Below, piece by piece: positions 25,327 to 42,761 of a DNA stretch of 64,000 bases; position 1 is the stretch's first letter, and each line of letters begins with the position of its first letter. The stretch comes from Pseudoruegeria sp. HB172150 (GTDB taxonomy: Bacteria; Pseudomonadota; Alphaproteobacteria; Rhodobacterales; Rhodobacteraceae): positions 868,001 to 932,000 of the forward strand of contig NZ_JAATNG010000001.1 of the NCBI RefSeq assembly GCF_013184805.1, read 5' to 3'. The notes under the pieces were generated by a model. The model was not told the origin of the DNA. It made no database searches and saw nothing but the letters and a program-made list of their open reading frames with translations. The position numbers and the translations under genes are program-made.

Positions 25327-25611
25327 GAAAATGCAGTTTCCGATAAGGCTCTGTAAAAGCGCTGATTTCTAGTGAATTGGCCAGTGTCGTAGTGCTGGTG
25401 TGGGCAATTCACGGGCAATTCTTCGAAGTTGACCGTGGTCTTATGATCGGCCTATCCTTGGGATGAAATGCGTAGCGCATCTTCGGATGGTCGATGCAGA
25501 GGCGGGTCGAAAGACTCGTTGGCGGATCGCAGGCCGCCGATCAAATCTGCCCCTTGTCTCATCGGGTTACGTGGGTCCACCCCTCTCTGATTGATCCAAT
25601 GGAGACGAATG

Positions 25612-25881
25612 ATGCGTGAACGCTGGTACTCGAAACCACAAATCGCCCGATACATTACGAAGCGGTTCTTCGATGTTACGCCTCGCAGCGTCGAAAGAAT
25701 GCCGCTTGAGTCGAAGCTGATAGCTGGAAAGAGGCGCTATAGTACAGTATCAGCCGATGAAATCTGCAAGTCTTTAATCGAAGACGCACCTACAGTTCTT
25801 GGCACTCCCGGTGCTCGGACGATGAAGCTGCAAGTTGCTCAAATAGAAGATCAAAGCTCGGGGGCAGGCACCGGCCCATAG
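25612..25881 (+). CDS. Small winged-HTH protein, possible excisionase/AlpA-like regulator
   Basis: 89 residues from the ATG at 25612, preceded by GGAGACGA; ATG 25609 and TTG 25591 are alternatives. The segment SKPQIARYITKRFF..TPRSVERMPL followed by KLIAGKRRYSTVSADEI resembles the short winged helix of AlpA/Xis-type DNA-binding proteins, with the basic GKRRY in the wing. Small proteins of this kind control excision and early genes in satellites. It is first in the element, opposite the integrase. Identification is tentative. Confidence 0.5.
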   Translation: MRERWYSKPQIARYITKRFFDVTPRSVERMPLESKLIAGKRRYSTVSADEICKSLIEDAPTVLGTPGARTMKLQVAQIEDQSSGAGTGP

Positions 25882-25977
25882 CATTCCCCAATACTGCGGG
25901 CGTCTGCGTCCGTTTCGGGCGATAATGGCGGTAACTCCCTTGGGAGTTGCGCGTTAGAGCGGCCGAGACGGTTTGCC

Positions 25978-26133
25978 GTGCAGCTTAGCGAACTGCACCA
26001 GATGGCAAGGTGGTCCGGGCATAGCGCGGCTGGCAGAGATATTGGGGGAGCCCCAAACATTGTCTCACGCAAAGAACGAACGCCCCCAAACTGGGAGCGT
26101 TCGATAGCTGCAGAGTATTGGAACAGCGGATAG
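25978..26133 (+). CDS. Possible very small DNA-binding protein
   Basis: A 51-codon frame from a GTG. The wording GGAPNIVSRKERTPPNWERSIAAEYW loosely resembles the recognition helix and tail of short Cro/YdaS-like repressors. There is no clear Shine-Dalgarno, and the same DNA contains a hairpin. I list it as a possibility only. Confidence 0.2.
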   Translation: MQLSELHQMARWSGHSAAGRDIGGAPNIVSRKERTPPNWERSIAAEYWNSG

Positions 26134-26279
26134 CGAACCCGCTGTACCCAATTATCGCGCGGCGCTGGCGCATTAGCGAACGTTAATTGTTTCTGGGATG
26201 GGTTGTTAGCTCGCGAAGTTCAAAGCGGAAGTTTGATGTCGGTAAGTCATTAATCGAAAACCAAATTCCCAAGCGCATT

Positions 26280-26295
26280 GGCACGATATCGTTCC
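26280..26295. promoter_or_regulatory. Element palindrome, copy 1 (GGCACGATATCGTTCC)
   Basis: 16-bp near-perfect palindrome 79 bp before the primase start codon. The match with copy 2 extends to its right (TCCT then CGTT). Three further copies lie upstream of other transcription units of the element. Confidence 0.65.
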
Positions 26296-26373
26296 TCCTG
26301 CCGTTTCGGCGGGGTGGTTAAGAAGTCTGAAACCGACCGCGCGAGGTCTCGGCGGTCAATCTGGAGGATGAGG

Positions 26374-28956
26374 ATGCCCGTGGATGATGATGAAATCCGC
26401 CGTCGAGAACGAGAAGACCTGGATACCCACGTCATTGAGGATCAGCGAGGCGGCGACACTACGACGCTGCAGATGTACAGGGAGGACGAACTACCTGCGT
26501 TCCCTGTTGGCCTGTCGTGGAACAGGATGAGGGAGCGCTGGGAAAAGAAGCCGCTGGTCAGATGGTCAGGCGCTTTGGGCAGCACGGTCGGGTCACTTAG
26601 AGGCAGAACTCGGATTAGTGCGATTGGCGTTCCCATGGGTGAGCGCAGCGGCCTTTTCGCCTTCGACCTGGATAGCTACAAAGAGGGCAACGAAGCGGAC
26701 AATTGGCTCAAGAGTCGCGATCTGCCCCCCACCCGCAAACACTCCACAATGAGCGGCGGCGAACACTGGATTTACCGGCTTCCAAAAGAGTTCTGCGATC
26801 TACCAAGCACTGGTGGCAGTTTGGCCCGTGGTTTGGATACGCGTGGCGAAGGCGGCTACATCGTCTGGGCAGGTGGTGTTGACGACCGGCGATACGAAGT
26901 CATTGATGACCGCGAGCCCGCTTATCTACCTGAAGCGGTGTGCGAAGAACTTCAGCAACTATCAAGTACGGGGAAGAAGCGAGCAAATCCGCCCGACTAC
27001 TGCCAGCCGTCTGCGGAAGATCAGCGACGGATCACGGAGCGGCTTGAAGAGCTATTGTTCAATGACGAGTCGCTGTCAGCCCTTTGGCATAGGGGCGAAA
27101 AGGCGCACGGTGATCAGACTAGGTCAGGCAAGGACTACACGCTTGCCCTGATGCTTGCACGAGGCGGCTTCGGTTATCACGAACTTGTCTGGCTGATCTA
27201 CGAGATTTTCGACCACGGCACGGTGGCTAGAGATGGCCACACTGAGAAGGCCATCGCCAGCATCCGAAGATGCGCCCAAAAGGCCATGCAAACAATCCGC
27301 GACAGATCAATTCAGAGGTCCGACCGAATTGACCTCCTTAGGATCAACGTCGGCGATCACAGACGCGGCGAAATCATCCGGTCCGTCTCCGAGCACCTGA
27401 GCGCGAAGCGCAAAATGTTTCGGTTCGGATCGAGTCCAGTGACGGTATTGTCCGACTCCACAGGCGTGATCCATCTTCTCGATGATGGCACGCGCGTTCC
27501 CGAAGCCGTTTTGGTGCCAGCCGAAATTAACGAAGTCCTGGCATTAATCGAGATCGAGCAAGAGGTTCATGCCTTCGGCATCAACCGGGATGAGGAAGTC
27601 AGAAAGCCGATCCCAGTATGGTTGACGAACGGCATCGTCCGGAACTCAGGTCGGTTCATGCAGGATCTCCTCGGGATTGCGCGCTACCCGATGATGACCA
27701 AAAATGGGCTTGTGAGCGGGCACACGGGCTACGACGAGCGCACGAAACTTTGGTGGGCATGCGATCCCGTTGAGCCAAGGTTCGAAGGAGCCGGAGAAGA
27801 GGCCCTCCAGTTCCTTCGAGATCATATGTTGGTTGGGTTCCCGTTCGTTTCCGAGGCGGACCGGATCCGCGCGCTGGCACTTCCGCTGACGCTGATGGTG
27901 CGACGTCTTCTGCTGACGACAGGACAGTGCCCGGGGTTTGGTTTTCGGGCGAGCGAGGCGAATTCCTTCAAGACCTTTTTGGTACAGAATCTCAGCCGAA
28001 CGGTGTTGACGTATCTCCCCGCGACGCATGCTTACAGTCCTCGGCCGGAGGAGTTTGACAAGCAGTTGTTGGCGACTGTTCGGACTGACCCCGACCTGTT
28101 GTTTCTCGACAACCTGCCGAACGGCCATGCGTTCGGCCAGGCTTCGTTGGACAAGCTAATGACAGATGGTGTCCTTGAAGCACGCGAACTGGGTCGCTCG
28201 CACAACGTCAAAGTCCGGTTCTCTGGCGTTCCCGTGATCACAGGAAACGGATACTACTATCGTACGCCAGATACGCGGACGAGGTTCTTCGACATCAATC
28301 TTGAGAGGAACCAGGAAGTGCCAGCGGATTGGGTAGAGAGTGTCCTTCAGTTCATCGAGGACGAGCGACCAGCGATCATTGGAGCGTATCTCAAGATATT
28401 GGAGTGTCCGCCAGCACAAGCGCCTAAAGGAATGCGGTTTCCAGAGTGGTGGGAGGTTGTCGGTGGCCCGCTGAGCACAGCTTCTCAGGTGTCAGAACTG
28501 TTCGCTGTGGATGACATGGAAGGTGGTGTAGGCGGTGGCTACAGTGGTCCGCGATCGAACCTGTTCAGTGCGATGCTAGAGATGATGGCACGAGGGGGTG
28601 TTTATGAGAATGCGGCCAGTGTCGATGGAGAGGCCATGGCCGATGGGGAAGAAGGCAAGACGGGTGAGACAGTAGACCTGGACGAGATTGCCGCCCGAGG
28701 CGGTTACTACTGGGCGGAATTGGAAACTCTGTTTGAGGAGGAGCTTCGCGATGCTCTGGGCATTGAGGATTCCGTTCCTCTAAACCGACGGCACAGCGCG
28801 CGGCTGAGCCAATTGCACCTGAACCATAAAGCCCGGCTCATCGGGTCCGCGAATGTTGGACGGCTAAGGACCAAAGACGGGCGCGATCTGAAATCACGTA
28901 AAAAGACAATATTCTTCATTGAAACCGTAGGAACGGCCGACGATATCGCGCTGTGA
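26374..28956 (+). CDS. PrimPol-type primase with C-terminal AAA+-like domain
   Basis: 860 residues from the ATG at 26374, which has GGAGG 7 bp upstream; the open frame begins earlier, inside the palindrome. LFAFDLDSY (Asp98, Asp100) and SGGEHWIY with His131 match the catalytic residues of bifunctional primase-polymerases. The C-terminal third has DPDLLFLDN as a Walker B and VPVITGNG as a sensor 1, as in replicative helicases of plasmids and satellites, but the expected Walker A reads EANSFKT instead of GxxGxGKT. It should start replication of the element. Adjoining repeats at 29.0 kb could be the origin. Confidence 0.78.
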   Translation: MPVDDDEIRRREREDLDTHVIEDQRGGDTTTLQMYREDELPAFPVGLSWNRMRERWEKKPLVRWSGALGSTVGSLRGRTRISAIGVPMGERSGLFAFDLDSYKEGNEADNWLKSRDLPPTRKHSTMSGGEHWIYRLPKEFCDLPSTGGSLARGLDTRGEGGYIVWAGGVDDRRYEVIDDREPAYLPEAVCEELQQLSSTGKKRANPPDYCQPSAEDQRRITERLEELLFNDESLSALWHRGEKAHGDQTRSGKDYTLALMLARGGFGYHELVWLIYEIFDHGTVARDGHTEKAIASIRRCAQKAMQTIRDRSIQRSDRIDLLRINVGDHRRGEIIRSVSEHLSAKRKMFRFGSSPVTVLSDSTGVIHLLDDGTRVPEAVLVPAEINEVLALIEIEQEVHAFGINRDEEVRKPIPVWLTNGIVRNSGRFMQDLLGIARYPMMTKNGLVSGHTGYDERTKLWWACDPVEPRFEGAGEEALQFLRDHMLVGFPFVSEADRIRALALPLTLMVRRLLLTTGQCPGFGFRASEANSFKTFLVQNLSRTVLTYLPATHAYSPRPEEFDKQLLATVRTDPDLLFLDNLPNGHAFGQASLDKLMTDGVLEARELGRSHNVKVRFSGVPVITGNGYYYRTPDTRTRFFDINLERNQEVPADWVESVLQFIEDERPAIIGAYLKILECPPAQAPKGMRFPEWWEVVGGPLSTASQVSELFAVDDMEGGVGGGYSGPRSNLFSAMLEMMARGGVYENAASVDGEAMADGEEGKTGETVDLDEIAARGGYYWAELETLFEEELRDALGIEDSVPLNRRHSARLSQLHLNHKARLIGSANVGRLRTKDGRDLKSRKKTIFFIETVGTADDIAL

Positions 28957-29514: not shown

Positions 29515-30765
29515 TTGCAAAAGGAACACTCGCGCAATCACAAGGAAAAACACGGAATTCTCAAGGTTTTTTTGATTCCTATCGCCCTAGCGCTTTTGTC
29601 TACTCCAGCAGACTGTGAAGAGTATCTTCTGTACAACGAAGGTCAAGTGGTTTGGAACTACCATGGACATGCGAGATTGCTTCTTGATTTTCACGGAAAT
29701 TATGTAAGCGGCACAATATTGCCGATGAAAGGTATAAATGGAGAGGCCAGATATGTATACGGGGAGAATTTTGAAGAGGGAAAGATGCGATTGTTCCTTC
29801 CTAACGAAGAAGGCATTTTGAGGCCAAACATCTATGAAAAGGAAATCACAAGAGACAAAATCATATGGAAATCTGAAACGGCGAGTAATTTTTTTAGGTT
29901 GAGAAGCGGTCCATTTTCCGAGGCATCTTTGACATTTTCGTACGGCAGTTGTTCGGTTAGAACCCAGTTGTTGCAAGTCTTTCTAAATGAAGATTCGGAA
30001 AACATAACTCCAGAAATTGACAGCATATTAAGAGGGAAGATCTCCGAATTCACCATTATGAGTAGCGGTGGGCAGATATACTTGACTACTCCACTTGGAG
30101 AAGAGGCGCGGGCAGCGCAGCTGGTTAGACAAATTAACTCTGTACATAGTGTTTCATACTTTTCCGGCTGTGGCCCGGAGGAGGCAACGAACTTCACCTT
30201 GCCGAAAAGTGTTATTTCGGAGGATTCCGACATTAGTTCGTCGGAATTAGCAGATTTTTTAAAGGAAGGCGTCAAAACCTTTCTCGAGGCTAATCAAGGA
30301 GAAAGCGACATAAGATACAAAATAGATATTATTGGAGTTGCCGAATCTCCTTTTCTGGGAGCCACAGTGAGCGCTCGGCTGTCCGTTACCGCCTGGTCGA
30401 GAGCTACACGACGCGCGGACAACAATTGGGATCGATTTGAAGTATTTGCAGCAGTGGCCGACATTTCCCCTCAGTCTGTAAATGAAACCACAATTATTAT
30501 TTGGGTCGAAGATCTCTATACGGGAAGTGTCGTAGCTCGTCCCAATGTAGATCCACCGCATGAAAGTTTTCTTAATATTTTATCGGGTCCCGGCGAGGAA
30601 GGCATCATTGCTCTTCTATTGTCGGATTTTTTTGCCAATGAATATTCAGGGCGATGTAGTGTTGAGCCATTATCGGTGGAGAACTATCTTGAGCCGGAAA
30701 GATCAATTATTTTTAAAGATAATTTCGGTAGATGTCCCTGGAACGAAGCAGAGCGAGGAGATTGA
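29515..30765 (+). CDS. Secreted protein of unknown function
   Basis: 416 residues starting at a TTG with GGAGGAG 8 bp upstream. After a basic N-terminus, residues 16-32 (ILKVFLIPIALALLSTP) form a signal peptide with cleavage near CEE. The rest is beta-rich, acidic and without a motif I recognise. Codon use is AT-rich compared with the chromosome and with other element genes, suggesting separate acquisition. It is followed closely by a small membrane-protein gene, so the two probably form one transcription unit. Confidence 0.75.
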   Translation: MQKEHSRNHKEKHGILKVFLIPIALALLSTPADCEEYLLYNEGQVVWNYHGHARLLLDFHGNYVSGTILPMKGINGEARYVYGENFEEGKMRLFLPNEEGILRPNIYEKEITRDKIIWKSETASNFFRLRSGPFSEASLTFSYGSCSVRTQLLQVFLNEDSENITPEIDSILRGKISEFTIMSSGGQIYLTTPLGEEARAAQLVRQINSVHSVSYFSGCGPEEATNFTLPKSVISEDSDISSSELADFLKEGVKTFLEANQGESDIRYKIDIIGVAESPFLGATVSARLSVTAWSRATRRADNNWDRFEVFAAVADISPQSVNETTIIIWVEDLYTGSVVARPNVDPPHESFLNILSGPGEEGIIALLLSDFFANEYSGRCSVEPLSVENYLEPERSIIFKDNFGRCPWNEAERGD

Positions 30766-30773
30766 GTCGTAAT

Positions 30774-31196
30774 ATGTATAGCCGCACACATAGGAATCTA
30801 ATCACTGTAATTGTTATTTTTGGTCATGTAGGTATTTTTCTTTACGCTTTTTTGGTGGTTCCGTATTTTAGAGCGGGTGAAATACTAGATTCCGACTTTT
30901 TCCAATTGGTACTTATGGCGAGCCCGGTTCTTGCAACGACGTCCATGTTGGCCTTCGTTAAATTGTTAGACGACGGGGGAAGAGGGCCGCGTGGAAGGAG
31001 AGTAGGTTTGACGTATACAGTGATCACTGTATCGCTTCCCGTTATTCTCATCATCATAATATTGTATATTTTTACTTTGTTCGCACTTGCTGTGAGCACT
31101 CTAGACAGGCTGAAGTTATCCTTGGGTGTAATAGAAACGTTTTTTGGAGGATACATTGGTATACTTGGAAAGAGGCTGTATGGAACTTCTTCTTGA
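30774..31196 (+). CDS. Small membrane protein, three predicted helices
   Basis: 140 residues from the ATG at 30774. Three hydrophobic stretches lie near residues 9-32, 42-65 and 82-115, the last possibly a long or re-entrant helix (VILIIIILYIFTLFAL). AT-rich codon use matches the preceding secreted-protein gene. Function unknown; the pair could be an effector with a membrane partner, but this is only a guess from arrangement. Confidence 0.65.
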   Translation: MYSRTHRNLITVIVIFGHVGIFLYAFLVVPYFRAGEILDSDFFQLVLMASPVLATTSMLAFVKLLDDGGRGPRGRRVGLTYTVITVSLPVILIIIILYIFTLFALAVSTLDRLKLSLGVIETFFGGYIGILGKRLYGTSS

Positions 31197-31449: not shown

Positions 31450-32046
31450 TCATGTTCCGATGCCTCGAGCGATCAAACGACGATATGTCATTTTTCGATC
31501 CGCATCGATCTGCGGTGGTGGATACGGAAGCGCATCCACATAGCTGTCGGCTATGGAAGCATCACTTGATCGTAATTCATGATAGACGTTCAGCAACTCT
31601 CGTCCAACGTGCTCCGGCAAAGGTTTCCTGCGTGACCGAAATTTGCTGGCGAATTTCGCGACCGGAGTCGCTCGCCGCGCGTTGCTGAAAACGTCGATCA
31701 AGGCAGGCACATCAGTCACGCCAAAATTGTTCACGAGCGTTGGAGCACTGGCGTAGCTGAGTGGCATTGCAGCCGGATCCCATTTAGCTTCACCGAAAAT
31801 GCCATGGTGAAGCGTTTGGATCGGTGGCGTGACATGAACAAGCTTCACTCCTAATGCTCCGTTCTGCGCAAAGGCGAACCGTGTCCCGTCAAGTTCGGCG
31901 AGTTTTTTGGGGTTCATTAAGTTTTTCCGATGGCACCCAGTGCAACCGAAACTGCCAAATTCCCACAAGGGATCGGTTCTCATCTCGTTCGGATCATCGA
32001 GACGAGGTTGCCTGAGCATGACTATGACAACGCGAAGGCTATCCAT
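31450..32046 (-). CDS. Partner protein of the Nmad3-like gene (FGCTGCH motif)
   Basis: 198 residues. The strongest motif is DPLWEFGSFGCTGCHRKNLMNP, where C-x2-C-H could bind a metal; FAFAQNG and LVHVTPP follow. I do not recognise a named family. The start codon overlaps the last 8 bases of the Nmad3-like gene, so the two are translationally coupled. An association with modified nucleotides or DNA is inferred only from this pairing. Confidence 0.7.
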   Translation of the reverse strand: MDSLRVVIVMLRQPRLDDPNEMRTDPLWEFGSFGCTGCHRKNLMNPKKLAELDGTRFAFAQNGALGVKLVHVTPPIQTLHHGIFGEAKWDPAAMPLSYASAPTLVNNFGVTDVPALIDVFSNARRATPVAKFASKFRSRRKPLPEHVGRELLNVYHELRSSDASIADSYVDALPYPPPQIDADRKMTYRRLIARGIGT

Positions 32047-32785
32047 CTGTGCCCAATCCGCTCAGTGACGAGGTAAGATCTTCGCACCACCGAGAGGCGT
32101 CATCGCGCTGTCCTATGTCCGCGACGAATTCTTGCCCGCGCGCAACGGCATTGAGCCTGTCGTGGGCCTCCCAACGATCTGCGCGCGCGTGGTAAGTCAG
32201 GCCAACTTCGTGCAGCCATGTAGGGACGCGCCAACGACTGACAGCACCTCCCGGCAATGAAAGCCTTTGCTCGTCTCTCGCTTCGTTGGCGGTTCCTCCA
32301 CGACCGAGATAAAGCGTATTATTGGCGTTCCATTCTCCAAGAGTATGTGGATGCCGCATTGCGAAGCCGGACGGCTGATCAGTTGCTCGTGGATTCGCTC
32401 CCAGAGAAACAGTTTCCTCAACCACCAGAAAACCAAAAAAACGGTGGTGCCGGTCGCTGCCATCGGGCTCTGCAAACAAACCAAAGAACAGGAAGATATC
32501 TCCTATCCCAACGGCGTTGTTCGCGAGGTGGGACTGCGCAGCTCCGGTTTGGCCAAAGGCGCACCGCCCCTGATCAAACATGGGGTCATGATGGCAAAGA
32601 CTGGTGCCTGATATTCGCGACTTGGTCGCAGTTTCAACTATCTTCGAAAGTCCGAGGTCCGCATATGTAGTCTCGGAGCGATGTCTTGTCGGTATAGGCA
32701 GGCTGATCGGCTTTCCGTCGATAATCGGCGACGGGGCTCCGCCGGCACCAGTGTCAAACCCCTTCCTGCTCAGCACGATCTTCAT
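32039..32785 (-). CDS. Nmad3-like (nucleotide-modification-associated) protein
   Basis: 248 residues opening MKIVLSRKGFDTGAGGAPSP, then SLPIP, YADLGL, FGQTGAAQSHL, GDIFLFFGLF, RHPHTLGEW and GQEFVAD, the order of conserved segments I know from the Nmad3 family. Such proteins were predicted from gene neighbourhoods to take part in making or handling modified bases. It is transcribed against the rest of the element together with its partner, like a cargo module. The biochemical role is unproven. Confidence 0.7.
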   Translation of the reverse strand: MKIVLSRKGFDTGAGGAPSPIIDGKPISLPIPTRHRSETTYADLGLSKIVETATKSRISGTSLCHHDPMFDQGRCAFGQTGAAQSHLANNAVGIGDIFLFFGLFAEPDGSDRHHRFFGFLVVEETVSLGANPRATDQPSGFAMRHPHTLGEWNANNTLYLGRGGTANEARDEQRLSLPGGAVSRWRVPTWLHEVGLTYHARADRWEAHDRLNAVARGQEFVADIGQRDDASRWCEDLTSSLSGLGTDG

Positions 32786-33104
32786 GAACTATCGTCGCAT
32801 ACCTTGTGGACGTACCAGTAGTATCTTGGAAAGACATAGCGTTTGTCACCACCTTAGGCGCGGATGCTCAAGGCGCCGTGCCATTGGAGGCCCAAAGGGA
32901 CAAGCAACCTCCCAAGAATTGGCGCCATCGCACAATCCAATTGATCCCCTAATGCGTTGTGGGCACGCGACAACGTCGTCACGCCGGGGTGTGCGGTGGG
33001 CCGGGGGGATCATCAGTTCCGGAGCGACGGGGGGCCGGAACCGCTCTGGGGGCTGCAAGAAAACCGTTGGTTAGTGAAGAAAACGATAAAGGTTATGGAC
33101 TTAG
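32786..33104. other. Gap between the Nmad3-like module and the terminase operon
   Basis: Divergent promoter region for the minus-strand Nmad3-like pair and the plus-strand terminase operon. Short frames on both strands have no credible start or composition. I see no copy of the 16-bp palindrome here. Confidence 0.5.
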
Positions 33105-33614
33105 ATGAAGGACATTAACTCAGATCGTGTTGGCGACGGACAGAAGGAATTGGAATTCCTCCAAGAGAATGTCCATGCTGAACACCCCGATCCGCCTGAA
33201 TGGCTGGACGAGGACCAACAGAAATTCTGGCGCATTCTGGTGAAATCAAAAGCACCTGCGGATTGGTTGTGCCCAACGTCGCTTCTGCAGCTGTCCCAGC
33301 TGTGCGTCTTGTCTGCGAGGTTCTTCAACATCCAGCAGGAGATTGACGAGAACAACCTGTTTCAAGACGTCAACACGCGGAGTGGCTGGTGGGAAAAACC
33401 AGACCCAAGATTAGCAATACAGTCGAAGGTGTTGACGCAGATGCGGGGGGTGATCCGCGATCTTGGTCTGAATTCGGGCGCTACGACCATGTCCGCGCAA
33501 CGCCGCCTCGCACGTCTCGAAAAGGCTATGAAGCTGCGCGGCGAACACCCTGAACAAGAAAAAGCCAATGAAGAAGAAAAACACCAAGAGATGATCCAAC
33601 TTCTCGCCAGCTAA
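33105..33614 (+). CDS. terS: Phage terminase small subunit, P27-like
   Basis: 169 residues. PDPPEWLDEDQQKFWRILV, then W and the helical segment SLLQLSQLCVLSARFFNIQQEI, then PRLAIQSKVLTQMRGVIRDLGL, follow the layout of the P27-type small terminase (entry helix, central helices, 'no-long-range' C-terminal LGL segment) and end in a charged Glu/Lys tail. Small terminases recognise the pac or cos site. No large subunit gene follows, which is the arrangement expected of satellites that redirect a helper's packaging motor. First gene of a packed operon. Confidence 0.65.
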   Translation: MKDINSDRVGDGQKELEFLQENVHAEHPDPPEWLDEDQQKFWRILVKSKAPADWLCPTSLLQLSQLCVLSARFFNIQQEIDENNLFQDVNTRSGWWEKPDPRLAIQSKVLTQMRGVIRDLGLNSGATTMSAQRRLARLEKAMKLRGEHPEQEKANEEEKHQEMIQLLAS

Positions 33615-33638: not shown

Positions 33639-33851
33639 ATGCCTATTAACGTAGAAGAACTTCTCAAGCTTAAGGAGTTCGAATCCGAGGAAGAATTCCT
33701 CGACCGAGTGGACGAACTCGTTCTGAAGATCGCAGAGATGGACATCAAAGACAGAAAGAACATCGCAGGTCTCCTAGTGCTTCTGGATGAATTGACTGCA
33801 ACGCACGAGATTTATTCAGAACAGCTAGTAGAGGAAAGAGAGGTCGCTTGA
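33639..33851 (+). CDS. Small acidic helical protein
   Basis: 70 residues, almost wholly helical, rich in Glu, Leu and Lys (EELLKLKEFESEEEFLDRVDELV). Starts 24 bp after the terminase gene and overlaps the next frame by 4 bp. No family recognised; it could be an adaptor for the terminase or an anti-repressor. Confidence 0.6.
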   Translation: MPINVEELLKLKEFESEEEFLDRVDELVLKIAEMDIKDRKNIAGLLVLLDELTATHEIYSEQLVEEREVA

Positions 33852-34108: not shown

Positions 34109-34370
34109 ATCCATCAAGGTCCACATCGAAAACGATAGTACCGTAGGTTGTCCTAAATACAATCTTCTGGTGCAACATGAGATGCCTCTATGGGCTCTTG
34201 CACGTAGGTTGCTCGATCTTGGTGTTGACCGCGACACCAGCATTCTCATCTACGTGATCAATGCAGAAGACTACGACGAGGACGAAAGGTTCCCTGAACG
34301 TACTGTGGGGGAGTGGGCAAAACTATCTTGGGAAGATGGAATGCGTCTTGCTCAACAGAATGCCGCCTGA
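34101..34370 (+). CDS. Small hypothetical protein
   Basis: 89 residues from the ATG at 34101; TTG 34062 and ATG 34089 are alternatives, none with a strong Shine-Dalgarno. N-terminal SIKVHIENDSTVG is beta-like, the rest helical and acidic (INAEDYDEDERFPERTVGEWAKLSWEDG). No recognised family. It closes the first block of the operon; the next gene follows after a palindrome. Confidence 0.6.
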   Translation: MARSIKVHIENDSTVGCPKYNLLVQHEMPLWALARRLLDLGVDRDTSILIYVINAEDYDEDERFPERTVGEWAKLSWEDGMRLAQQNAA

Positions 34371-34404: not shown

Positions 34405-34420
34405 GGAACGATATCGTTCC
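34405..34420. promoter_or_regulatory. Element palindrome, copy 2 (GGAACGATATCGTTCC)
   Basis: Perfect 16-bp palindrome 52 bp before the gene at 34472. TCCT and CGTT follow as in copy 1. Confidence 0.7.
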
Positions 34421-34471: not shown

Positions 34472-35179
34472 ATGCTTGTAAGACGATTGCCACCAGCCAC
34501 CATCAAACTAAAAAATGGCTGCCACCTCACCCTGTCTAAGCGCATAACGGGCACCACTGCAAAGGTAGCACATTCCTCTGCTGTACGTGCCTTGCAGCAA
34601 TACGAAAAGGCAGAAGATGCAGAGGAACTGCTGGAGATTCAGCACCAGAATCTCGATCTGCTGGATGAGCTTATTGCAGCTGCAACTCTCATCGCAGAGA
34701 ACCTTCTTTCCGCTATTCGGATGCTGGAAGGCAACCCTACGGATGGCACCGGCCCGGTAGTTGAAAACGCAGCAACCACCCGCGCCTTAGCGGATGCCTT
34801 AGGAGCTGCTGTACCAGAATTTGATCTGGGGGAGTTGGACGAGACTCTGCAAGTTCTGCGTAGCACTTACGCCGACATTACGCAGGACCTAGACACGGCC
34901 ATTAAGCGCAGAGAGAAGCTTGATATGGTCCTGCGCGAAGGAACGGCGATCGTCATCGCGCACGCAGATCGACCTGCCAGATTGTTCGAACTTTACGAGC
35001 TACCGCACGAACTGTCTGTGGCTACATCCGACAACTGCAAGGCACTCTGCAAGAGTTACCTCAGTCGGAAAGAGATCAAACGCCAGAAGGACAAGGCAAA
35101 CCGAAGGGACACGCTCCGACGAGACATTGCCAGCAAGGTTGCAAGGATCTGGGAGGGAGACTTCAGCAATGCCCGGTAA
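34472..35179 (+). CDS. Coiled-coil protein of the element, unknown function
   Basis: 235 residues starting MLVRRLPPATIKLKNG; GAGG precedes the ATG. Residues 35-65 and 105-165 have long heptad-like Leu/Ile/Glu patterns and suggest coiled coils; the tail is basic (KEIKRQKDKANRRDTLRRD). It could be a structural or scaffold-modifying protein. Overlaps the next gene by 11 bp. No family recognised. Confidence 0.7.
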   Translation: MLVRRLPPATIKLKNGCHLTLSKRITGTTAKVAHSSAVRALQQYEKAEDAEELLEIQHQNLDLLDELIAAATLIAENLLSAIRMLEGNPTDGTGPVVENAATTRALADALGAAVPEFDLGELDETLQVLRSTYADITQDLDTAIKRREKLDMVLREGTAIVIAHADRPARLFELYELPHELSVATSDNCKALCKSYLSRKEIKRQKDKANRRDTLRRDIASKVARIWEGDFSNAR

Positions 35180-35549
35180 CAGCAACTTCCCCGTCACCTT
35201 CACCAGCACCCGACCCGTCTCTAATCAGCCCACCAATGCACCTGTGCAGCCATCGCTTCCGACTCCCGCAAGAGGCACCAAGGGCAGTAAAGACTTGCAT
35301 AGCGATGCGATACTTTCTGCAGTAGGTCGCATCATCAAAGAAGAACTAGAGAAGCGCGACAGCGACTTGACCGAGAAGTTCGCATCGCTCGATGGGAACA
35401 CCATCCTTAAGTCAGCTTCCGCAGCCATCCTCGCTGCCAACCTCGCAGCACTGCGGGAGTATGCAGGTAATATATCGCTTCGACGAGCAAAGCATATCGA
35501 AGGTACGGAGCCACTTCCGGCACTTCTGGGGGGAATTCTCGATGCTTGA
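35169..35549 (+). CDS. Small element protein, disordered N-terminus with helical C-terminus
   Basis: 126 residues. The first 45 are Pro/Thr/Ser-rich (FTSTRPVSNQPTNAPVQPSLP), followed by an acidic helix (IIKEELEKRDSDLTEKF) and a hydrophobic helix of Ala/Leu. Starts inside the preceding gene and overlaps the next by 8 bp, so tight coupling is likely. No family recognised. Confidence 0.65.
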   Translation: MPGNSNFPVTFTSTRPVSNQPTNAPVQPSLPTPARGTKGSKDLHSDAILSAVGRIIKEELEKRDSDLTEKFASLDGNTILKSASAAILAANLAALREYAGNISLRRAKHIEGTEPLPALLGGILDA

Positions 35550-36096
35550 TCTTTCTCCTGAAGATGTCGCTGCACATGAGCTACGGCACATCCTCGCAGC
35601 TTCCACAGCCCTCATGCAGAACGGCACAGCTGCCGACTACAAGAGCACGATAGTCCACTTCGACTTCACGGATGAAGGCGCTACCGTCCACTTCGCAATC
35701 GAAGATCCTAGCACCGAAGACTTGCCTAAGAAGGTAACACAGCTGGCAGCTTTAGGTCCGGTGGTGAAGTTCGACGGAGACCTTTTCGACCTAATTCGTG
35801 AAGGCAACAAGGAAGCCCTGCGCAAAGCAGGAAACCTCTCCCCCGAAGACCTCGATGCGGCTGCACAGTTTGACGGTCCACCTATGGAACCGATCAAGAT
35901 TTTGCTTGCCACCAAAGACTTGCAGGAGGTCTTAGGCGACAAAGGTTTCGACATTCTCGCGAAGCAGCTGCGCACAGCGCATAACCAGCACGTCGAAGAG
36001 TTCGGCCTAGCAGAATTGGTTCCACGCAAGTATGCAGCTGCAGCCCTGAAGGCAGCACAGGACGAGTTGTCTGCTACTTCGGGTATTCCGCAATGA
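35542..36096 (+). CDS. Element protein of unknown function
   Basis: 184 residues from the ATG at 35542, with GGGGGGAA upstream. It has an acidic alpha/beta composition (HFDFTDEGATVHFAIEDPSTEDL). There is no membrane segment or known motif. It overlaps its neighbours on both sides by 8 and 4 bp. Confidence 0.7.
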   Translation: MLDLSPEDVAAHELRHILAASTALMQNGTAADYKSTIVHFDFTDEGATVHFAIEDPSTEDLPKKVTQLAALGPVVKFDGDLFDLIREGNKEALRKAGNLSPEDLDAAAQFDGPPMEPIKILLATKDLQEVLGDKGFDILAKQLRTAHNQHVEEFGLAELVPRKYAAAALKAAQDELSATSGIPQ

Positions 36097-36719
36097 GCGA
36101 CATCAAAGACCTTCTACGGCACGAATATCTGCACGCTCTGGGCCATGTAATCGCAGACATTCTGGCCGGCCATACAGAACCACAACAAAGCCATTATTGC
36201 TGTATCGTGCAGCCACCGGACGCATTGTTCAAAGCCGATGGAAGCGAGTTCGATACGGCATTTGTCTTCCTGTCTGAAGTTCATGCAGGGAATGGTCACA
36301 TCAATATGCAGGAATGCTGCCTCTCTGTCGAAGATGTCGAGGCATTCCAAAGCATGTCTGCACGTTCAGAAAAAGATCCTCATATACGTTCCATCCTTGG
36401 GGTGGCGTTCTTCATGTCCAGTTGGTTCCACCAATCCAACGTTCTGAATGCAGCACTGGAAGATGGTTCAGATGAAGAGGGAATTTACATCCTCGAATCC
36501 AAGGAACTCTGGAAGGCCATAGAAGCACCCATACGTGAGTTGTTCGCTGCTATGCTAGCAGGAAGAGAGACTATTACAGTGGCACCTTTTACCAACATCC
36601 CTCTCCCTGTCTGGACATATATAGATGCACCTGCCGACAAGGTACCGGACATTAGACCTAAAGAAGAGATCAACGATGCCGAGGCCACTTTGGACAGAAC
36701 CCAGACCGGAACAGGATAA
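36093..36719 (+). CDS. Element protein of unknown function with HExxH-like motif
   Basis: 208 residues; ATGA overlap with the previous gene. Residues 10-18 read HEYLHALGH, an HExxH motif with a third His four residues on, as in some zinc peptidases, but it lies at the extreme N-terminus and no supporting fold is evident. The remainder mixes helices with Cys-containing segments. Could be a chance match. Overlaps the next gene by 44 bp. Confidence 0.65.
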   Translation: MSDIKDLLRHEYLHALGHVIADILAGHTEPQQSHYCCIVQPPDALFKADGSEFDTAFVFLSEVHAGNGHINMQECCLSVEDVEAFQSMSARSEKDPHIRSILGVAFFMSSWFHQSNVLNAALEDGSDEEGIYILESKELWKAIEAPIRELFAAMLAGRETITVAPFTNIPLPVWTYIDAPADKVPDIRPKEEINDAEATLDRTQTGTG

Positions 36720-37192: not shown

Positions 37193-37208
37193 GGAACGAT
37201 TTCGTGCC
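37193..37208. promoter_or_regulatory. Element palindrome, copy 3 (GGAACGATTTCGTGCC)
   Basis: Two substitutions from copy 2. It lies in the gap between the terminase operon and the convergent/divergent genes at 37.4-37.7 kb. Confidence 0.55.
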
Positions 37209-37530: not shown

Positions 37531-37692
37531 GGGTAGGTTCTCCTCTGTACTGCAAGCTACACCTCCGATGCTTGCAGTGCTGTTAGATTCGGAAGCACCT
37601 CTGATCACGGGTGTTAAGGCTTAACACGCAAGACAAGCTTCTTTTGCTTGTTAAGCCGGATTCTGGTAGCTTCGGCCTCGGAGGACGGTTTG

Positions 37693-38259
37693 ATGTTCCA
37701 CTCGACCGACAACGCGGGAGAAACCATCCGGAAGCTGCAAGTTCTCAGCGATTGGTACGCTGAGAACGTTGATACTTCGACATTGACGCCTTCGTTACGC
37801 TGCGCACATCGACATATGTTCGGGCTCACAGCCTTCGATGTGTCAACACCGGTCGTCCAAAGTCTGGCCAGATCACGTTCTGGGCTGGAAGCAACCGAGT
37901 CCATGCTGCGCTACCTGAAAGCTAGTCCTGAAACAGTTGAAGTGTTTTCGGAGAAAAGCATGACCCGCCTACTGGAGAATACCGAGCCGCTGAGCGGCTG
38001 GGCTAAACACTTCTGGTCTGACTGGCTGGAGCTAAGCGACGAAGGGGCACCGGGAATGTGGTGGCCCGTGCCTGTGCTGAATCACCTGCTAGCTAACCAC
38101 TTTCCGGCTTCGACTCTACGTTCAGTCACAATTGCCCTTGAGGCGATGGGAGTCGTGGAACGACGGCGTGCGCGCCATCAGGTCAACCCGAAATCCCGGG
38201 CAAACGCGATTAGGGTAACTAAGCGCGGCTTGATGCTCGATGAGGAGTTGAGGAAATGA
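37693..38259 (+). CDS. Putative winged-HTH protein of the element
   Basis: 188 residues from the ATG at 37693, chosen because GGAGG stands 8 bp upstream; a TTG at 37648 is an alternative. The C-terminal 70 residues (VPVLNHLLANHFPASTLRSVTIALEAMGVVERRRARHQ..ANAIRVTKRG) have a winged-helix pattern with a basic wing. It could be a regulator of the element. Its stop overlaps the next start (ATGA). Confidence 0.6.
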   Translation: MFHSTDNAGETIRKLQVLSDWYAENVDTSTLTPSLRCAHRHMFGLTAFDVSTPVVQSLARSRSGLEATESMLRYLKASPETVEVFSEKSMTRLLENTEPLSGWAKHFWSDWLELSDEGAPGMWWPVPVLNHLLANHFPASTLRSVTIALEAMGVVERRRARHQVNPKSRANAIRVTKRGLMLDEELRK

Positions 38260-38417: not shown

Positions 38418-38878
38418 CTTCAAAACGTCCGCTTCGAACTCGTAGCCGGCGACTCTGAGAGCTTGCAACTTGAAATTGTACCGCTACGCAGGTGACCTGC
38501 CAAAAACGGTCGCTTCCGCTGGTGACGCAAACGGTTGAGTTATGGCACATCCTGCGGCTCGGAGAAGGTCCGAGACGAGCCCATTTCAGACGTCGGTGAA
38601 CTGCGCGGCAACCGGCGCGACGGGCGGGAGACAGTCGTTCGCCGCATGGCAGCGAGAACTCGCGGGGATCGCCAAAGCGGACATTGGACACCACAAAATC
38701 TATAGATATCTGCAAGAAATTACGACATATTGTCGTCAACGGCTCACACAGCTCATGATGTAGCAAGCGATCCCGAATGACCTCAGAAGTATGTTTGATG
38801 AACAGTCTGTCCGAGGTTTTGGCCGCCGATAGTGCGACGATCGTGGAGTACTATGTGCCTCCTTCACCATGAACCACA

Positions 38879-39023
38879 GCCGGTCAACTTGACCGGCTGA
38901 TCCCTTCAAATAAGCAGTACGCTAACTTTTACCAAAAGCTCATTAGGCCGAGTCGGCCCGCTGACCACCAATTAAGAGCATCTTCTCTGAAGACATCAGA
39001 GGGTCAACTTGGCCCGCTGACCC
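38879..39023 (+). repeat. TCAACTTGGCCCGCTGACC repeat cluster
   Basis: Copies near 38883-38904, 38950-38967 (partial) and 39002-39023, spaced about 50-70 bp. The first lies in a palindrome GCCGGTCAA-C-TTGACCGGC; the third begins GGGTCA and ends TGACCC. Probably binding sites of one protein. Confidence 0.55.
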
Positions 39024-39044: not shown

Positions 39045-39058
39045 GCACGATATCGTTC
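39045..39058. promoter_or_regulatory. Element palindrome, copy 4 (GCACGATATCGTTC)
   Basis: Retains the central ACGATATCGT of copies 1 and 2. It lies 153 bp before the frame at 39211. Confidence 0.55.
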
Positions 39059-39210
39059 AAAATGCCTTGGCCACGCACCAGCTGCGCACGCACATACCCT
39101 GTCTGGGGGCATAGTAATAGCGCGATTTCGTCCCTGAGAGTGAACGGCCGCAAATTATTGAGGCAACGACACATGCTCCCTATATTGTTTGAACCGTACA
39201 TGTCGAAATC

Positions 39211-39462
39211 ATGGGTAGGATTTTGGAAGAACCTGAATTCAAAACCAATCACCGAAACCCGTTGACAGAACTCTCAGAACTCCGGCTCGAAATTGGGCCG
39301 AAAGACGAGGTCTTCGATCTAACCTGCCGGTTGCGGTTCGGCGTTATGCAGTATGAGCACAAAGACCGAGAATATGGGTCGGTGTGTCAAAGGCTCACTT
39401 ACGCTTGTCACTCGAAGGTTGCGAAAGCACGTTTGACGAAGTCTTCGGAGAAAGTGGGCTAG
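39211..39462 (+). pseudogene. 5' part of a probably frameshifted gene
   Basis: An 83-codon frame from ATG. Up to about residue 58 (LRLEIGPKDEVFDLTCRLRFGVMQYEHKDREYGSV) it reads like normal protein; afterwards it turns basic and random. The overlapping frame at 39384 becomes protein-like exactly where this one stops being so. The point lies in GGTGTGTC, where an extra GT would shift the frame. Together they would form one protein of about 255 residues. Confidence 0.5.
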
Positions 39463-39980
39463 AGTCGGTTCTGGAGGAAGACGCCTTAGAAATAGAGACC
39501 GCAGCGAAGTTCGCCGGTGCTGTTGAGGCGGCTACGGATGCCGGGGCGAATGCCAAAGCGAATGCTGGAGTAGGTGTTGGAGCGATGCGAAAACGCAAGA
39601 TTTCGCAAAGCAAGGTGCATTTGCCTGTTGAAGCACGCCCGAACGATAGTTGGGAAATCCAGCCGAAGTCCGTAACCGAAGGTGCCACAACCTTGCTCGA
39701 AGGTACCGCAATACCGGGAGTTCGCCTTTGCGGAGTTCGCCGTCTCCATGGAGGGAACCGCATGGTAATTGCTGGTGAGGTGCAAGTTGCAAAGAGCGTG
39801 ATCCGTGTATCTGCCAAGGGAGGTAATCGTCTTAACAGAGCGATGAATGAGTACCAAAACAAGGATGCAATCGTTGCCCAGATATTGAAGAAGGCCATTC
39901 TCCGTGAGGCAGCTAGCAATGTGCCCGGCCGACCAAAATCTATTGTGGCAATATCTCGAAGCGAGGTTTCGGAAGAGTGA
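39384..39980 (+). CDS. Hypothetical protein, possibly the 3' part of a frameshifted gene
   Basis: 198 residues from a GTG, without a Shine-Dalgarno. SKAHLRLSLEGCESTFDEVF is followed by an Ala/Gly-rich linker (EAATDAGANAKANAGVGVGAM), a beta-rich middle and a tail KAILREAASNVPGRPKSIVAISRSE. No family recognised. The GTG may merely be the first in-frame codon after a shift; see 39211. Overlaps the following gene by 4 bp (GTGA). Confidence 0.55.
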   Translation: MSKAHLRLSLEGCESTFDEVFGESGLESVLEEDALEIETAAKFAGAVEAATDAGANAKANAGVGVGAMRKRKISQSKVHLPVEARPNDSWEIQPKSVTEGATTLLEGTAIPGVRLCGVRRLHGGNRMVIAGEVQVAKSVIRVSAKGGNRLNRAMNEYQNKDAIVAQILKKAILREAASNVPGRPKSIVAISRSEVSEE

Positions 39981-40738
39981 CGCAACTTCTAGAAGATGTT
40001 CTTACCGAGGATGAGCTGAAGGCAATTGACGATGTACTTTCTGGCGATAGTCCGAGATTTGACCTTTTGGTAGATTTGTCCGGTTTAGACCCTCGAAACG
40101 ACTTCAAATTCTCGGACCTGAGAAGATTAAATCTATGCGGTGCGGATCTAAGGGGATTTGATTTCACTGGCTCGGATCTGCGCCAATGTGTGCGAAACGG
40201 CAATACGCTGATTGACGATACAACCGTCTTTGATGACGCCTTAGTTGAGTGGATAGACGTCGAAACTTTGCCAATCGTGATGAAGATGCAGGAAGTGGAA
40301 GCGGCATCCGGGCCAGAGCCTCGTCAAAAGCTGTTGACTGAACTGGTTGCTGAGTTCGGGAAGACCAGTCACGTAGTCTCCTACATGGTCTCGGCTGCGT
40401 CCAAGGCACAAACGCTCGATGAATTCTTAGATTTCGCGCTGTTCCTGCCCGAAAAGGTTACGACCAATCAATCCGCTACTTTACGATCTGCCGGTTTGAA
40501 ACTGCTGAAAAAGAAGCTGTCGCAGAGTCGTTCTCGAACTGGCCGAGGGGCTACGGCAATCTTTGCTATAGAAAATATAGTTGCGAAACTTCAACAGGCA
40601 CCGGACTCGATGGCGGAACGCATTTATGGTCATTTGGCTGATGTGGTTAATTCAAAGCAACCAGCCACAATTGGCAATCGACTGGTTTCAGTTGAAGCAA
40701 GGGATGTAGAGCACGCTTTCTCTCGAATAGGACAGTAG
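39977..40738 (+). CDS. Protein with a short pentapeptide-repeat segment
   Basis: 253 residues from a GTG overlapping the previous stop. Residues 45-70 (FSDLRRLNLCGADLRGFDFTGSDLR) form about five A(D/N)LxX pentapeptide units, a right-handed beta-helix seed. The larger C-terminal part is helical with no known motif. The coupling to the upstream frame suggests they work together. Role unknown; a regulatory or effector function is possible. Confidence 0.65.
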   Translation: MTQLLEDVLTEDELKAIDDVLSGDSPRFDLLVDLSGLDPRNDFKFSDLRRLNLCGADLRGFDFTGSDLRQCVRNGNTLIDDTTVFDDALVEWIDVETLPIVMKMQEVEAASGPEPRQKLLTELVAEFGKTSHVVSYMVSAASKAQTLDEFLDFALFLPEKVTTNQSATLRSAGLKLLKKKLSQSRSRTGRGATAIFAIENIVAKLQQAPDSMAERIYGHLADVVNSKQPATIGNRLVSVEARDVEHAFSRIGQ

Positions 40739-40813
40739 ATTTTGCGGATTGTTCAGGCGGCAATGTTCGAAGTAAAATAAAGCGAGCCGCTGAAATTAGG
40801 AAACTTCTAAAAT

Positions 40814-41344
40814 TTAATCACTGGTTGACCTGTCAATAAAGCTAATATCCTTAAGTGGTTCTTGCTCCGCATTCATTCTAATATGTTCTAACAAGACCAT
40901 TGTTGCCGCACAGGCCATTAAGAATTTCTCCTTTCTCGGAAGGTCCATCTCAATGTTGTGCGATGTGTTATCGCAGAGATCCTTAATGCGATCTTTTTCA
41001 AATGAAGCATCTCTCATGTGGGCAAATTCATTTCGTACTTTCCGTTGAATTTGAAGCTGGTCATGTATAGCGTCATCAATCAATCGAAGGGCGTAACAGG
41101 CTTCTATCCGCGCGTGCAGGCTGCCAAGCGGCGCGTTGTGGTTATCTAAAAGTTCTTTGCTGCTCTTGCCTGGCCGCAGATATGCAACCAGTACATCGCG
41201 CAGCTGTTGCTCAACAAAACCCGTTGCAACAAGAACAGCTCCTCGAGCACTTTCTTTGTTGAGCATATCTGATATTGTGCCGAGCTCCGCTTGAAACTCA
41301 GCACCAAGTGGGTTCAATTGTGCGCTTCTTTCACCGCTAGCCAT
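40814..41344 (-). CDS. MltR/HEPN-like protein
   Basis: 176 residues from the ATG at 41344 (GTG at 41350 possible). The helical domain with LGSLHARIEACYALRLID and RKVRNEFAHM resembles the MltR family, which shares the HEPN-type fold; Arg104-x4-His109 fits the HEPN ribonuclease motif. True MltR regulates mannitol use, but no mannitol genes are here. Adjacent to the integrase gene in a mobile element, a toxin or defence role is as likely. Function unresolved. Confidence 0.65.
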   Translation of the reverse strand: MASGERSAQLNPLGAEFQAELGTISDMLNKESARGAVLVATGFVEQQLRDVLVAYLRPGKSSKELLDNHNAPLGSLHARIEACYALRLIDDAIHDQLQIQRKVRNEFAHMRDASFEKDRIKDLCDNTSHNIEMDLPRKEKFLMACAATMVLLEHIRMNAEQEPLKDISFIDRSTSD

Positions 41345-41409
41345 AGTCACAGCATGGCATGGGGGTAGGTGCAGTCAAGCTTCGACGCAGAGTGCGATAT
41401 CGTGCGGCA

Positions 41410-42549
41410 TTACTGTTCGGTCAGTGCGTCTGACCACTTCGTCAGCCACTCCCTGCGCTCGGCAAGGAAGTCGTATTTCAGGTAGTGGCGCATCACACCT
41501 GAGACAGAGGCACTGGCGCTATGGTTCAGCATCCTGTCAGCGACTTCGAGTGGACATCCCTCGGCCGCAAGCCATGACATGAGTGTGCGGCGAAGATCGT
41601 GCAGCTGCCAGTCGGTAACGCCACATGCCTCGTCCAGCCGGGTCTTGAACTTGGTGAACTGCTTGATGGGCGATGTGCCAGTGCTGGTGAAGATCCAGCC
41701 AGTGTCGATGGTAAGCGGCTTCACAGCTTCCAACACCCCCATAGCTTGGGGGGCGAGAGGCACGATGAAGCTTCGCGACGACTTTGTGATTTTGGCCGGC
41801 AGTACGATTTGATCGCCTTGGATGTGCTCCCACCATAGACAGGAGCATTCCGTCCGACGCAGGCCGGATAGGTGCAGGAGGCGGAAGTAGCTCTGCCAGA
41901 CTTGAGGCAGCTTTCCGGCACCTTCGTATACCTGTTTGGCTTCCTCCATGGAGAGGTAGCGCTCCCTTGGCTTGGTAGGAGTTGATCGGATGGAACGCAC
42001 GACCTGCGCGTCAACGAGTTCTCGTTCTGATGCCCACCCCCAGAGTGCCTTCGTCTCCTGAAGCGTTCGACGCATGGAAGTTGGCGCTGTGGCAGCTTTG
42101 CGGTCGAAGATCTGAACCAGGTCTTTCCGGTTAATCGCATTCGCGGGGTGTTTCAGTAACGGCTTCAGGTCGCGCTTCAAATCCCGCACAGCTTCACGGA
42201 TGGTTCTGCGCTGCGCCTTCGCCTCTGCCCAATTGTCGATGACCTGTTCCAGTGTGGGCGATGCGTTTGTCCTACCCGTTGGTATCTCTGCGCCCGCGCG
42301 TATGGCGGCAAGAGCGGCTTGAGCGGCGGCTCTTGCATCCTCCACACCCTGATGGGGCCAACTGCCGAGGTGTACCCGATGCCGTGTGCCTCTGAAGGTC
42401 TTCCTCATCTGCCACTTCGCATCGTCGCGATGTCCTGTGACACTCAAACCTGACACCGCAGCATCAGTCAGGGTAGAAGCGGGTCCACTCTGGGGGAGGT
42501 TCCTGCGGATGTAAGAGTCGGTCAGTCTGGTGTCAGAGATTCGTCCCAT
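41410..42549 (-). CDS. int: Tyrosine recombinase (integrase) of the element
   Basis: 379 residues from the ATG at 42549, preceded by AGAGGA; ATG 42555 and a longer start at 42582 are alternatives. The C-terminal catalytic domain has the Arg of LSGLRRTE (near 233), HDLRRT (His-x2-Arg near 318), the His of LNHSAS and the nucleophile Tyr of RHYLKYDF. The N-terminal half has the DNA-arm and core-binding pattern of phage-type integrases. It should insert and excise the element, with the right att site just beyond its start. Confidence 0.92.
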   Translation of the reverse strand: MGRISDTRLTDSYIRRNLPQSGPASTLTDAAVSGLSVTGHRDDAKWQMRKTFRGTRHRVHLGSWPHQGVEDARAAAQAALAAIRAGAEIPTGRTNASPTLEQVIDNWAEAKAQRRTIREAVRDLKRDLKPLLKHPANAINRKDLVQIFDRKAATAPTSMRRTLQETKALWGWASERELVDAQVVRSIRSTPTKPRERYLSMEEAKQVYEGAGKLPQVWQSYFRLLHLSGLRRTECSCLWWEHIQGDQIVLPAKITKSSRSFIVPLAPQAMGVLEAVKPLTIDTGWIFTSTGTSPIKQFTKFKTRLDEACGVTDWQLHDLRRTLMSWLAAEGCPLEVADRMLNHSASASVSGVMRHYLKYDFLAERREWLTKWSDALTEQ

Positions 42550-42761
42550 TCTCATTCCTCTGTCTGGGCAATTCCTAGCCAAAAGAATCGCTCGGATTGG
42601 AAGAGATCGCTGTCAAAAAGAGACGCTGCGGGACGAAAAGTCAAAGGCAATCCCTGATCTCAGGGAAGAAAAGTAATTGACAACAAATAGTTAAGATGTG
42701 AGTGCGAGAGGTGGCGAGACAGTGCGAGAATTAACGATAGGACGACTGAAAATAGTGCGCT

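Follow-up and report, generated by a model that had tools for sequence, protein, structure and literature searches.

A putative cos-type phage satellite with its own HK97-type small terminase subunit in Pseudoruegeria sp. HB172150 and related Rhodobacteraceae

A 64,000 nucleotide stretch of the 5.06 Mb genome of Pseudoruegeria sp. HB172150 (contig NZ_JAATNG010000001.1, positions 868,001 to 932,000; hereafter the window) contains an island of 17.4 kb and low GC (guanine plus cytosine) content at window positions 25,327-42,761. We consider it likely that this island is an integrated cos-type (cohesive-end) phage satellite, which would divert an HK97-like helper phage by means of its own small terminase subunit (TerS) and packaging site. 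The island probably travels in particles built by another virus. The GC content falls from about 0.65 outside to 0.44-0.59 within 25-43 kb of the window.

A preliminary description had noted that an integrase, a small winged helix-turn-helix (wHTH) protein, a PrimPol primase and a P27-like TerS occur here together without capsid, portal, large terminase subunit (TerL) or lysis genes, and had taken this as the mark of a phage satellite. Scans against Pfam and PHROGs agree with this combination. Each covered 20 predicted proteins, in overlapping sets from which the shortest open reading frames (ORFs) were left out, and yielded no confident match to TerL, portal, capsid, tail or lysis families among the island proteins scanned. 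The only matches labelled in such a way are two weak PHROGs matches to "virion structural protein" families, and they fall on proteins of known identity, the integrase (E 0.005) and TerS (E 0.09). Capsid, portal and TerL genes of the same element, which might have lain elsewhere in it, were not recognised either. The satellite reading is thereby supported; excision, helper dependence and packaging are the parts of the lifestyle that we infer. Features going beyond the preliminary description are a cassette 3' of TerS, the protein Nmad3, repeated palindromes and G-tracts upstream of TerS.

On inspection, six genomes carry the cassette or part of it: that of the window and those designated G435 (Roseivivax lentus DSM 29430), G318 (Tateyamaria sp. 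Alg231-49), G220, G581 and G631.

TerS and a putative packaging site

The assignment of TerS to the P27-like type is upheld by PHROGs (Table 1) and by a match to PF05119 of 24.1 bits, just below the curated cut-off of 24.7. Terminase homology also withstood a comparison with known structures: a profile of five family TerS proteins retrieved HK97 TerS only (6z6e, 8pop; E 1.9e-4) among 177,635 distinct PDB sequences at E<=10. The window copy is 25% identical to that of G435 in a pairwise comparison, and 17, 21, 14 and 15% identical to its four relatives in a five-row alignment. In tblastn against phages it found one phage TerS (25% identical, E 3e-3), and the TerS proteins of G220, G631 and a prophage in genome G096 found no match. 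As lone query in 195 relatives, TerS detected the window copy and that of G096, a true prophage, only.

G-tracts, defined as runs of at least five G, were counted within 150 nt upstream of the gene start in the elements. Two to three of them precede TerS in all five TerS-bearing members; among 57 other same-strand genes of the same elements none has two and four have one. The pair upstream of TerS in G318, G220 and G631 represents two of just three coding-strand runs in the stretch counted. The excess over the rest of each element corresponds to Poisson p values of 9e-5 to 1.7e-3 (combined 3e-13) for a motif chosen post hoc. The stretches upstream of TerS have no k-mer of note in common.

HK97-like phages show a similar arrangement. 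The G096 prophage has the order HNH, TerS, TerL, portal, protease, capsid (Pfam) with G-tracts between HNH and TerS. HK97 carries a run of nine G 100 nt upstream of terS, in the interval from the HNH gene to the right end of the record; terS begins at base 50 of this record, whose start was taken as the cut. Passages in two reports describe that HK97 packages at cos and that the HNH protein promotes cleavage there (PMC11331095, PMC9410871). We also examined viral contigs related to the G096 TerL (best 80 of 102 matches, 74 loci), of which 68 loci were used, 67 with a TerS frame, leaving 40 after dereplication, including G096, which had been viewed earlier. Within 250 nt upstream of TerS at least one run was present in 26 of these 40 and at least two in 13, compared with 15.9% and 2.1%, respectively, of 2,000 random stretches from the same loci. 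This enrichment therefore ties the G-tract signature to the packaging regions of HK97-like phages, and in the element it lies in the right place. We read the G-tract region upstream of TerS as a putative cos-like packaging site, be it cosN, cosQ or other.

In many of the G096-related phages (L051, L107-L180) the HNH-TerS block consists, as judged by eye, of G-tracts followed by ACCGGAGGG and then a TAGAAAAAGCCAC-like stretch. This block is probably their cos region.

The cassette downstream of TerS

A small gene and a defined set of four genes, g235, g209', g234 and g208, follow TerS. TerS and the cassette stand in the same order in G435, G318 and G220. Since the succession TerS, small gene, g235, g209', g234, g208 is kept despite cassette identities of 20-42%, the arrangement must be old and maintained. 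The cassette proteins have no Pfam match above the cut-off (best E 0.007) and no PHROG match better than E 0.04.

The model of g235 is a long helical coiled coil (predicted local distance difference test, pLDDT, 85), for which the fold search gave no match at E 0.001 or better. An HExxH motif is present in four of five g234 sequences and in all four g208 sequences. When the modelled g234 structure (mean pLDDT 78) was compared with the PDB, FtsH, YME1, AFG3L2 and FtsHi chains took seven of the first ten places, all with E > 0.2; viral FtsH/M41 proteins were also matched weakly. With sequence profiles against the PDB, g234 gave no match and g208 none better than E 1.3. On this basis g234 and g208 are termed M41-like, a putative assignment.

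The island might also be a decayed prophage which lost its head, tail and lysis genes and kept integrase, primase and TerS. TerS and integrase are indeed phage genes, and several carriers (G581, G631, G220) are remnants. The genes behind TerS, however, are not recognised as phage structural remnants, several genera show the same order of TerS and cassette, again with no TerL, the window, G435 and G318 have open core frames, and a common palindrome precedes two core operons. We regard decay as a very unlikely origin.

Related elements in other genomes

The preliminary description had suggested a search for relatives with the same gene order, and such elements were found in the same bacterial family. 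PrimPol matches were obtained in 41 of 394 family genomes, mostly to one half of the protein, with G435 as the one strong partner (E 3.5e-96). This genome contains TerS, a wHTH gene and homologues of g235, g209', g234 and g208, and an oppositely oriented integrase gene occupies the far end of its element. The placement of the excisionase-like gene and int at opposite ends, as first described for the window, thus recurs in G435.

Integrase and primase/helicase modules accompany the cassette in G435 and G318. The N-terminal part of the primase is variable, being PrimPol in the window and free of any Pfam family in G435; G318 has an AAA_25 helicase. The C-terminal part is 35% identical to that of G435 over residues 324-892 of the longer ORF. 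Where a usual Walker A motif (GxxxxGKT/S) might lie in the helicase-like parts, the alignment reads RASxAxSFKT in the window protein (26374-28956) and in L044:17167-19836. G318 has AlpA (PF05930 8.2e-5) beside the integrase. G220 is a remnant with cassette and TerS only, G631 retains TerS and a g235 fragment, and G581 has a broken g235. In the place of TerS, G581 encodes a 163-aa protein (L079:11060-11995) matching the C-terminal end of the TerL nuclease domain (2.2e-6) and adjoining a cysteine-rich HNH-like protein without Pfam match.

A profile built from five element proteins joined together (A7) detected five of 394 family genomes at E<=0.01, own genome and weak G197 included, and four of 292 order genomes, own included. 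The g235 profile found the window's genome only among 385 class genomes. In a second family draw of 295 genomes it matched four, of which G305 matched weakly and has no further genes of the element. As the genome draws overlap, the prevalence of about 1% is rough. PrimPol as single query found no close relatives in genome contigs and viral contigs. The putative satellites found so far form a family within Rhodobacteraceae only. G197, G305 and the viral locus L056 matched weakly or in part, and the cassette was not seen in them on inspection. A PrimPol neighbour at 3.638 Mb in G220 looks, by eye, like a remnant near a transposase-like gene.

Cargo, palindromes and borders

Several genes appear to be cargo (Table 1). 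PADLOC gave no match for eight window proteins, nor for one of two proteins from relatives. G318 carries a Mom-family DNA-modification protein as cargo (L075:6891-7670; PF25680 5.4e-29), and the window element Nmad3. Two members thus carry genes of DNA modification as cargo, which may protect the DNA as it enters.

The island could also be an unpackaged integrative defence or cargo island, with TerS and the cassette acting against phages, e.g. by poisoning the packaging of an incoming phage. Nmad3, the DUF4145-like protein and the pentapeptide protein could serve in defence or modification; interference with helpers is common among satellites, and no helper was found. Yet a replication protein, an integrase and a cos-like site beside TerS fit transfer better than defence alone, and PADLOC recognised none of the window proteins submitted. 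This explanation is in our opinion quite unlikely.

The palindrome ACGATATCGT occurs in three exact copies in the window, all within the island (expected 0.01; none of 100 shuffles reached three). For AACGATATCGTTCC with at most three mismatches there are 12 matches in the window against 4.7 expected. This suggests that one regulator may govern the main operons via the palindromes. A cluster of GC-rich repeats is a possible replication origin.

The island limits noted earlier coincide with the inner borders of an imperfect repeat of 24 bp (21/24 identical, 88%) with the exact common core CGCTGTCCCC. The left copy forms the end of a longer sequence, about 55 bp in length, which is dispersed across genomes of the genus, and the border repeat is therefore no proof of attachment (att) sites; this sequence may be an insertion target or a coincidence. 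Exact repeats of at least 12 bp (13 for G581) are absent at the likely ends of G435, G318, G631 and G581. The single tRNA gene of the window lies at 1.7 kb, far from the island.

The left flank is a 3-hydroxyacyl-CoA dehydrogenase-family gene, presumably for carnitine dehydrogenase, and the right flank a methyltransferase gene. Genome G001, from the same genus, has homologues of the methyltransferase (62%) and of the gene that precedes the dehydrogenase (66% over 88 residues) side by side, with island and dehydrogenase both absent between them. The adjoining outer flanks support insertion, yet there is no clean empty site among four same-genus genomes, three of which have the dehydrogenase beside other genes; the fourth, G001, lacks it.

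Table 1. Features of the island and its borders (window positions).
Feature	Position	Strand	Remarks
Left border repeat, candidate attL	25303..25326	+	shares core with right border; end of dispersed sequence
Small wHTH regulator, excisionase-like	25591..25881	+	ATG at 25609; 41% identical to G435 gene in same place; nothing above Pfam cut-off
Palindrome copy 1, operator-like	26283..26292	.	about 80 nt before likely PrimPol start 26374
PrimPol primase fused to helicase-like C-terminal part	26374..28956	+	PF09250 2.2e-16; putative ATG start
416-aa protein, low GC, cargo	29515..30765	+	no Pfam, PHROG or PADLOC match
154-aa hydrophobic protein, cargo	30732..31196	+	ORF list, Pfam scan
198-aa protein after Nmad3, cargo	31450..32046	-	Pfam and PHROGs scans
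Nmad3 (nucleotide modification associated domain 3), cargo	32039..32785	-	PF18754 6.4e-68, full profile
Three G-tracts (33003, 33029, 33048), putative cos-like site	33003..33052	+	AAGAAAAC repeats at 33057, 33077
TerS, HK97/P27 type	33105..33614	+	phrog_83 1.5e-11 over 101 residues; PF05119 5e-5
70-aa protein directly 3' of TerS	33639..33851	+	small gene here in 5/5 TerS-bearing members, homology unclear
69-aa ORF	33899..34108	+	ORF inspection
89-aa ORF	34101..34370	+	ORF inspection
Palindrome copy 2, operator-like	34408..34417	.	about 55 nt before g235
g235, all-helical coiled-coil protein, cassette gene 1	34472..35179	+	25-29% identical to 3 relatives
g209', small, cassette gene 2	35169..35549	+	25-42% identical to 4 relatives; putative ATG start
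g234, HExxH, FtsH/M41 peptidase-like, cassette gene 3	35542..36096	+	24-37% identical to 4 relatives; putative ATG start, from relatives
g208, second HExxH protein, cassette gene 4	36093..36719	+	20-22% identical to 3 relatives
Degenerate operator-like copy	37195..37208	.	2 mismatches to AACGATATCGTTCC
203-aa protein	37648..38259	+	Pfam and PHROGs scans
GC-rich direct and inverted repeat cluster	38877..39023	.	perfect 11-bp inverted repeat; no called genes
Palindrome copy 3, operator-like	39047..39056	.	exact copy
198-aa protein, cargo	39384..39980	+	Pfam and PHROGs scans
Pentapeptide-repeat-containing protein, cargo	39977..40738	+	PF00805 5.2e-5
DUF4145/MtlR-like protein, cargo	40814..41350	-	phrog_22031 5.9e-17; DUF4145 5.3e-4, below cut-off
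Tyrosine integrase, Arm-DNA-bind_3 domain	41410..42582	-	PF00589 8.5e-15, PF13356 1.1e-6, phrog_1 6.2e-50
Right border repeat, candidate attR	42762..42785	+	partner of left border repeat

Proposed life cycle and its weighing

If the island is a satellite, its own integrase would insert it by a site-specific reaction at the observed position between the dehydrogenase-family and methyltransferase genes. With an HK97-like helper active, the regulator of the element would turn on the primase operon and the operon behind TerS through the palindromic operators, and the PrimPol-helicase would copy the element into concatemers. The HK97-type TerS, evident from homology, would bind the G-tract region, where the site signature is observed, as a private cos site and bring the TerL and empty heads of the helper to the satellite DNA. 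The coiled-coil and HExxH proteins probably adapt head assembly or packaging of the helper, and Nmad3 and the other cargo may protect DNA or host; both roles are speculative.

Good descriptions of phage satellites exist for only a few bacterial groups. A Rhodobacterales family, if true, would mean that the HK97-like phages of this order, too, are parasitised by satellites that carry TerS and use cos. The cassette would be a candidate for hijacking capsids or packaging, and the G-tract signature a handle for seeking packaging sites in satellites and HK97-like phages. Tentatively, and with considerable doubt, we extend this to an undescribed group of Rhodobacterales cos-type satellites with private HK97-type TerS and cos, in which a head-diversion cassette with two FtsH/M41-like metalloproteases would take over packaging by proteolysis of helper heads.

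A number of observations weigh against the satellite interpretation or parts of it. No long exact att repeat was found at the island ends. The G-tract motif was selected after viewing the satellite sequences and G096; among the 40 phage loci, 14 are without a run and 27 have fewer than two, and the TerS contact site of HK97 lies downstream of the cut, outside the G-run, in the part of PMC11331095 that treats it. The repeated exact 10-bp palindromes are absent in G435, G581 and G631 and have no clear counterpart in G318 and G220. Two of the six members are broken, G581 being without TerS. Scans of viral contigs with element proteins gave no family member, one locus sharing the helicase part only, and tblastn of g235 against phage and plasmid records gave nothing, both methods missing distant relatives. 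One of five g234 proteins has no HExxH (EELRH in G318), and the g234 fold search found nothing at E 0.001 or better, so that the M41 reading draws on HExxH and weak fold matches. Finally, a resident helper was not identified in a search of carriers and own genome that was confined to the TerL family PF03354: one copy is present in the own genome and none in the five other carriers, and this sole copy sits in an element without recognised tail gene. A review states, in the part concerned, that hitchers occur in genomes without any possible helper (PMC11389934), and the helper therefore need not reside in the same strain.

Other elements of the same genome

The element with the sole PF03354 TerL (G000:C1:1091786-1101746, L088) comprises about 10 kb with genes for head-tail connector, TerL, head closure, HNH, capsid, prohead protease, portal, regulators and integrase, and showed neither tail nor lysis genes. 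It looks like a capsid-forming satellite and has no G-tract pair before TerL. A third element (G000:C1:1711068-1724987; L091, L092) contains an integrase (PF00589 1.9e-19), small genes and a weak TerS (phrog_51, 1.7e-3), and continues with PrimPol and then a tape-measure-like protein of 1027 aa. A portal gene (6.9e-90) was found at G000:C1:2302000-2308800 (L090), a stretch which, from its neighbours read by eye, we assume may be a gene transfer agent.

Comparison with known satellites and phages

Like satellites in general, the island is integrated, has integration and replication genes, and has no recognised structural or lysis genes. The preliminary description knew of no well-described family with this gene set in Rhodobacterales. 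In agreement with this, open-licence literature searched by title and start of abstract returned no such element for Rhodobacterales, Roseobacter, Rhodobacteraceae or Alphaproteobacteria; PMC12324425, in the portion considered, concerns other elements.

Phage-inducible chromosomal islands (PICIs) generally keep int and regulator together at one end, followed by replication and then encapsidation genes; a unique att site with identical repeats is a further trait of theirs. In the window and G435, int and the wHTH gene lie at opposite ends instead; G318 has int beside AlpA. The window element further differs from PICIs by its HK97-type TerS and its cassette with two HExxH proteins, and no known PICI interference gene was recognised in it. 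It resembles PICIs, including the Staphylococcus aureus pathogenicity islands (SaPIs), in having an integrase, a small regulator, a primase and no structural or lysis genes at a size near 15 kb (here 17.4 kb), as well as its own TerS, which some SaPIs also have (PMC6092414, in part). TerS is recognised here by homology, and the accompanying cos-like signature is putative. The legend of Fig. 1 in the same article places int at the left end (PMC6092414). Because the int-regulator arrangement is not found in two members, and the att repeat is 21/24 with a dispersed left copy, we did not file the element as a PICI. A divergent PICI, with that family taken broadly, would share the lifestyle proposed here, and this reading overlaps with the satellite reading without excluding it. 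It seems rather unlikely to us: int, the AlpA regulator of G318, primase, TerS, a size of about 15 kb and the absence of recognised structural genes agree with it, whereas the opposite ends and the cassette proteins devoid of convincing Pfam or PHROG matches do not.

The cos-type PICIs of E. coli with Rpp would likewise redirect the packaging of a cos phage. EcCICFT073, as described in parts of PMC6092414 and PMC6739421, has no TerS, its Rpp joining the helper TerS, unlike the present element with its own TerS.

The element resembles P4-like satellites by its primase-helicase and its integrase with Arm-DNA-bind_3, a P4-type feature. The P4 hallmarks Psu, Sid and delta are missing among its Pfam and PHROG matches, and, in contrast to the present element, P4 to our knowledge has no TerS. 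Capsid-forming PICIs (cfPICIs) have their own capsid, portal, protease and TerL genes, none of which was recognised here.

Phage-inducible chromosomal minimalist islands (PICMIs) also have int, a small regulator and a primase. According to the relevant part of PMC10803314, PICMIs are located at fis, and their prototype is 6.1 kb in size, with no terS found in it; the present element has 17 kb, a TerS, and dehydrogenase-family and methyltransferase genes as flanks.

With HK97-like cos phages (the G096 prophage, HK97) the element has the TerS family in common, and the G-tracts that these phages carry between the HNH gene and terS. In the phages, TerL and portal come after TerS, and then protease and capsid; in the element the new cassette takes their place. 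In function the element would resemble a PICI that has a TerS of its own, but it fits neither PICI, P4, cfPICI nor PICMI.

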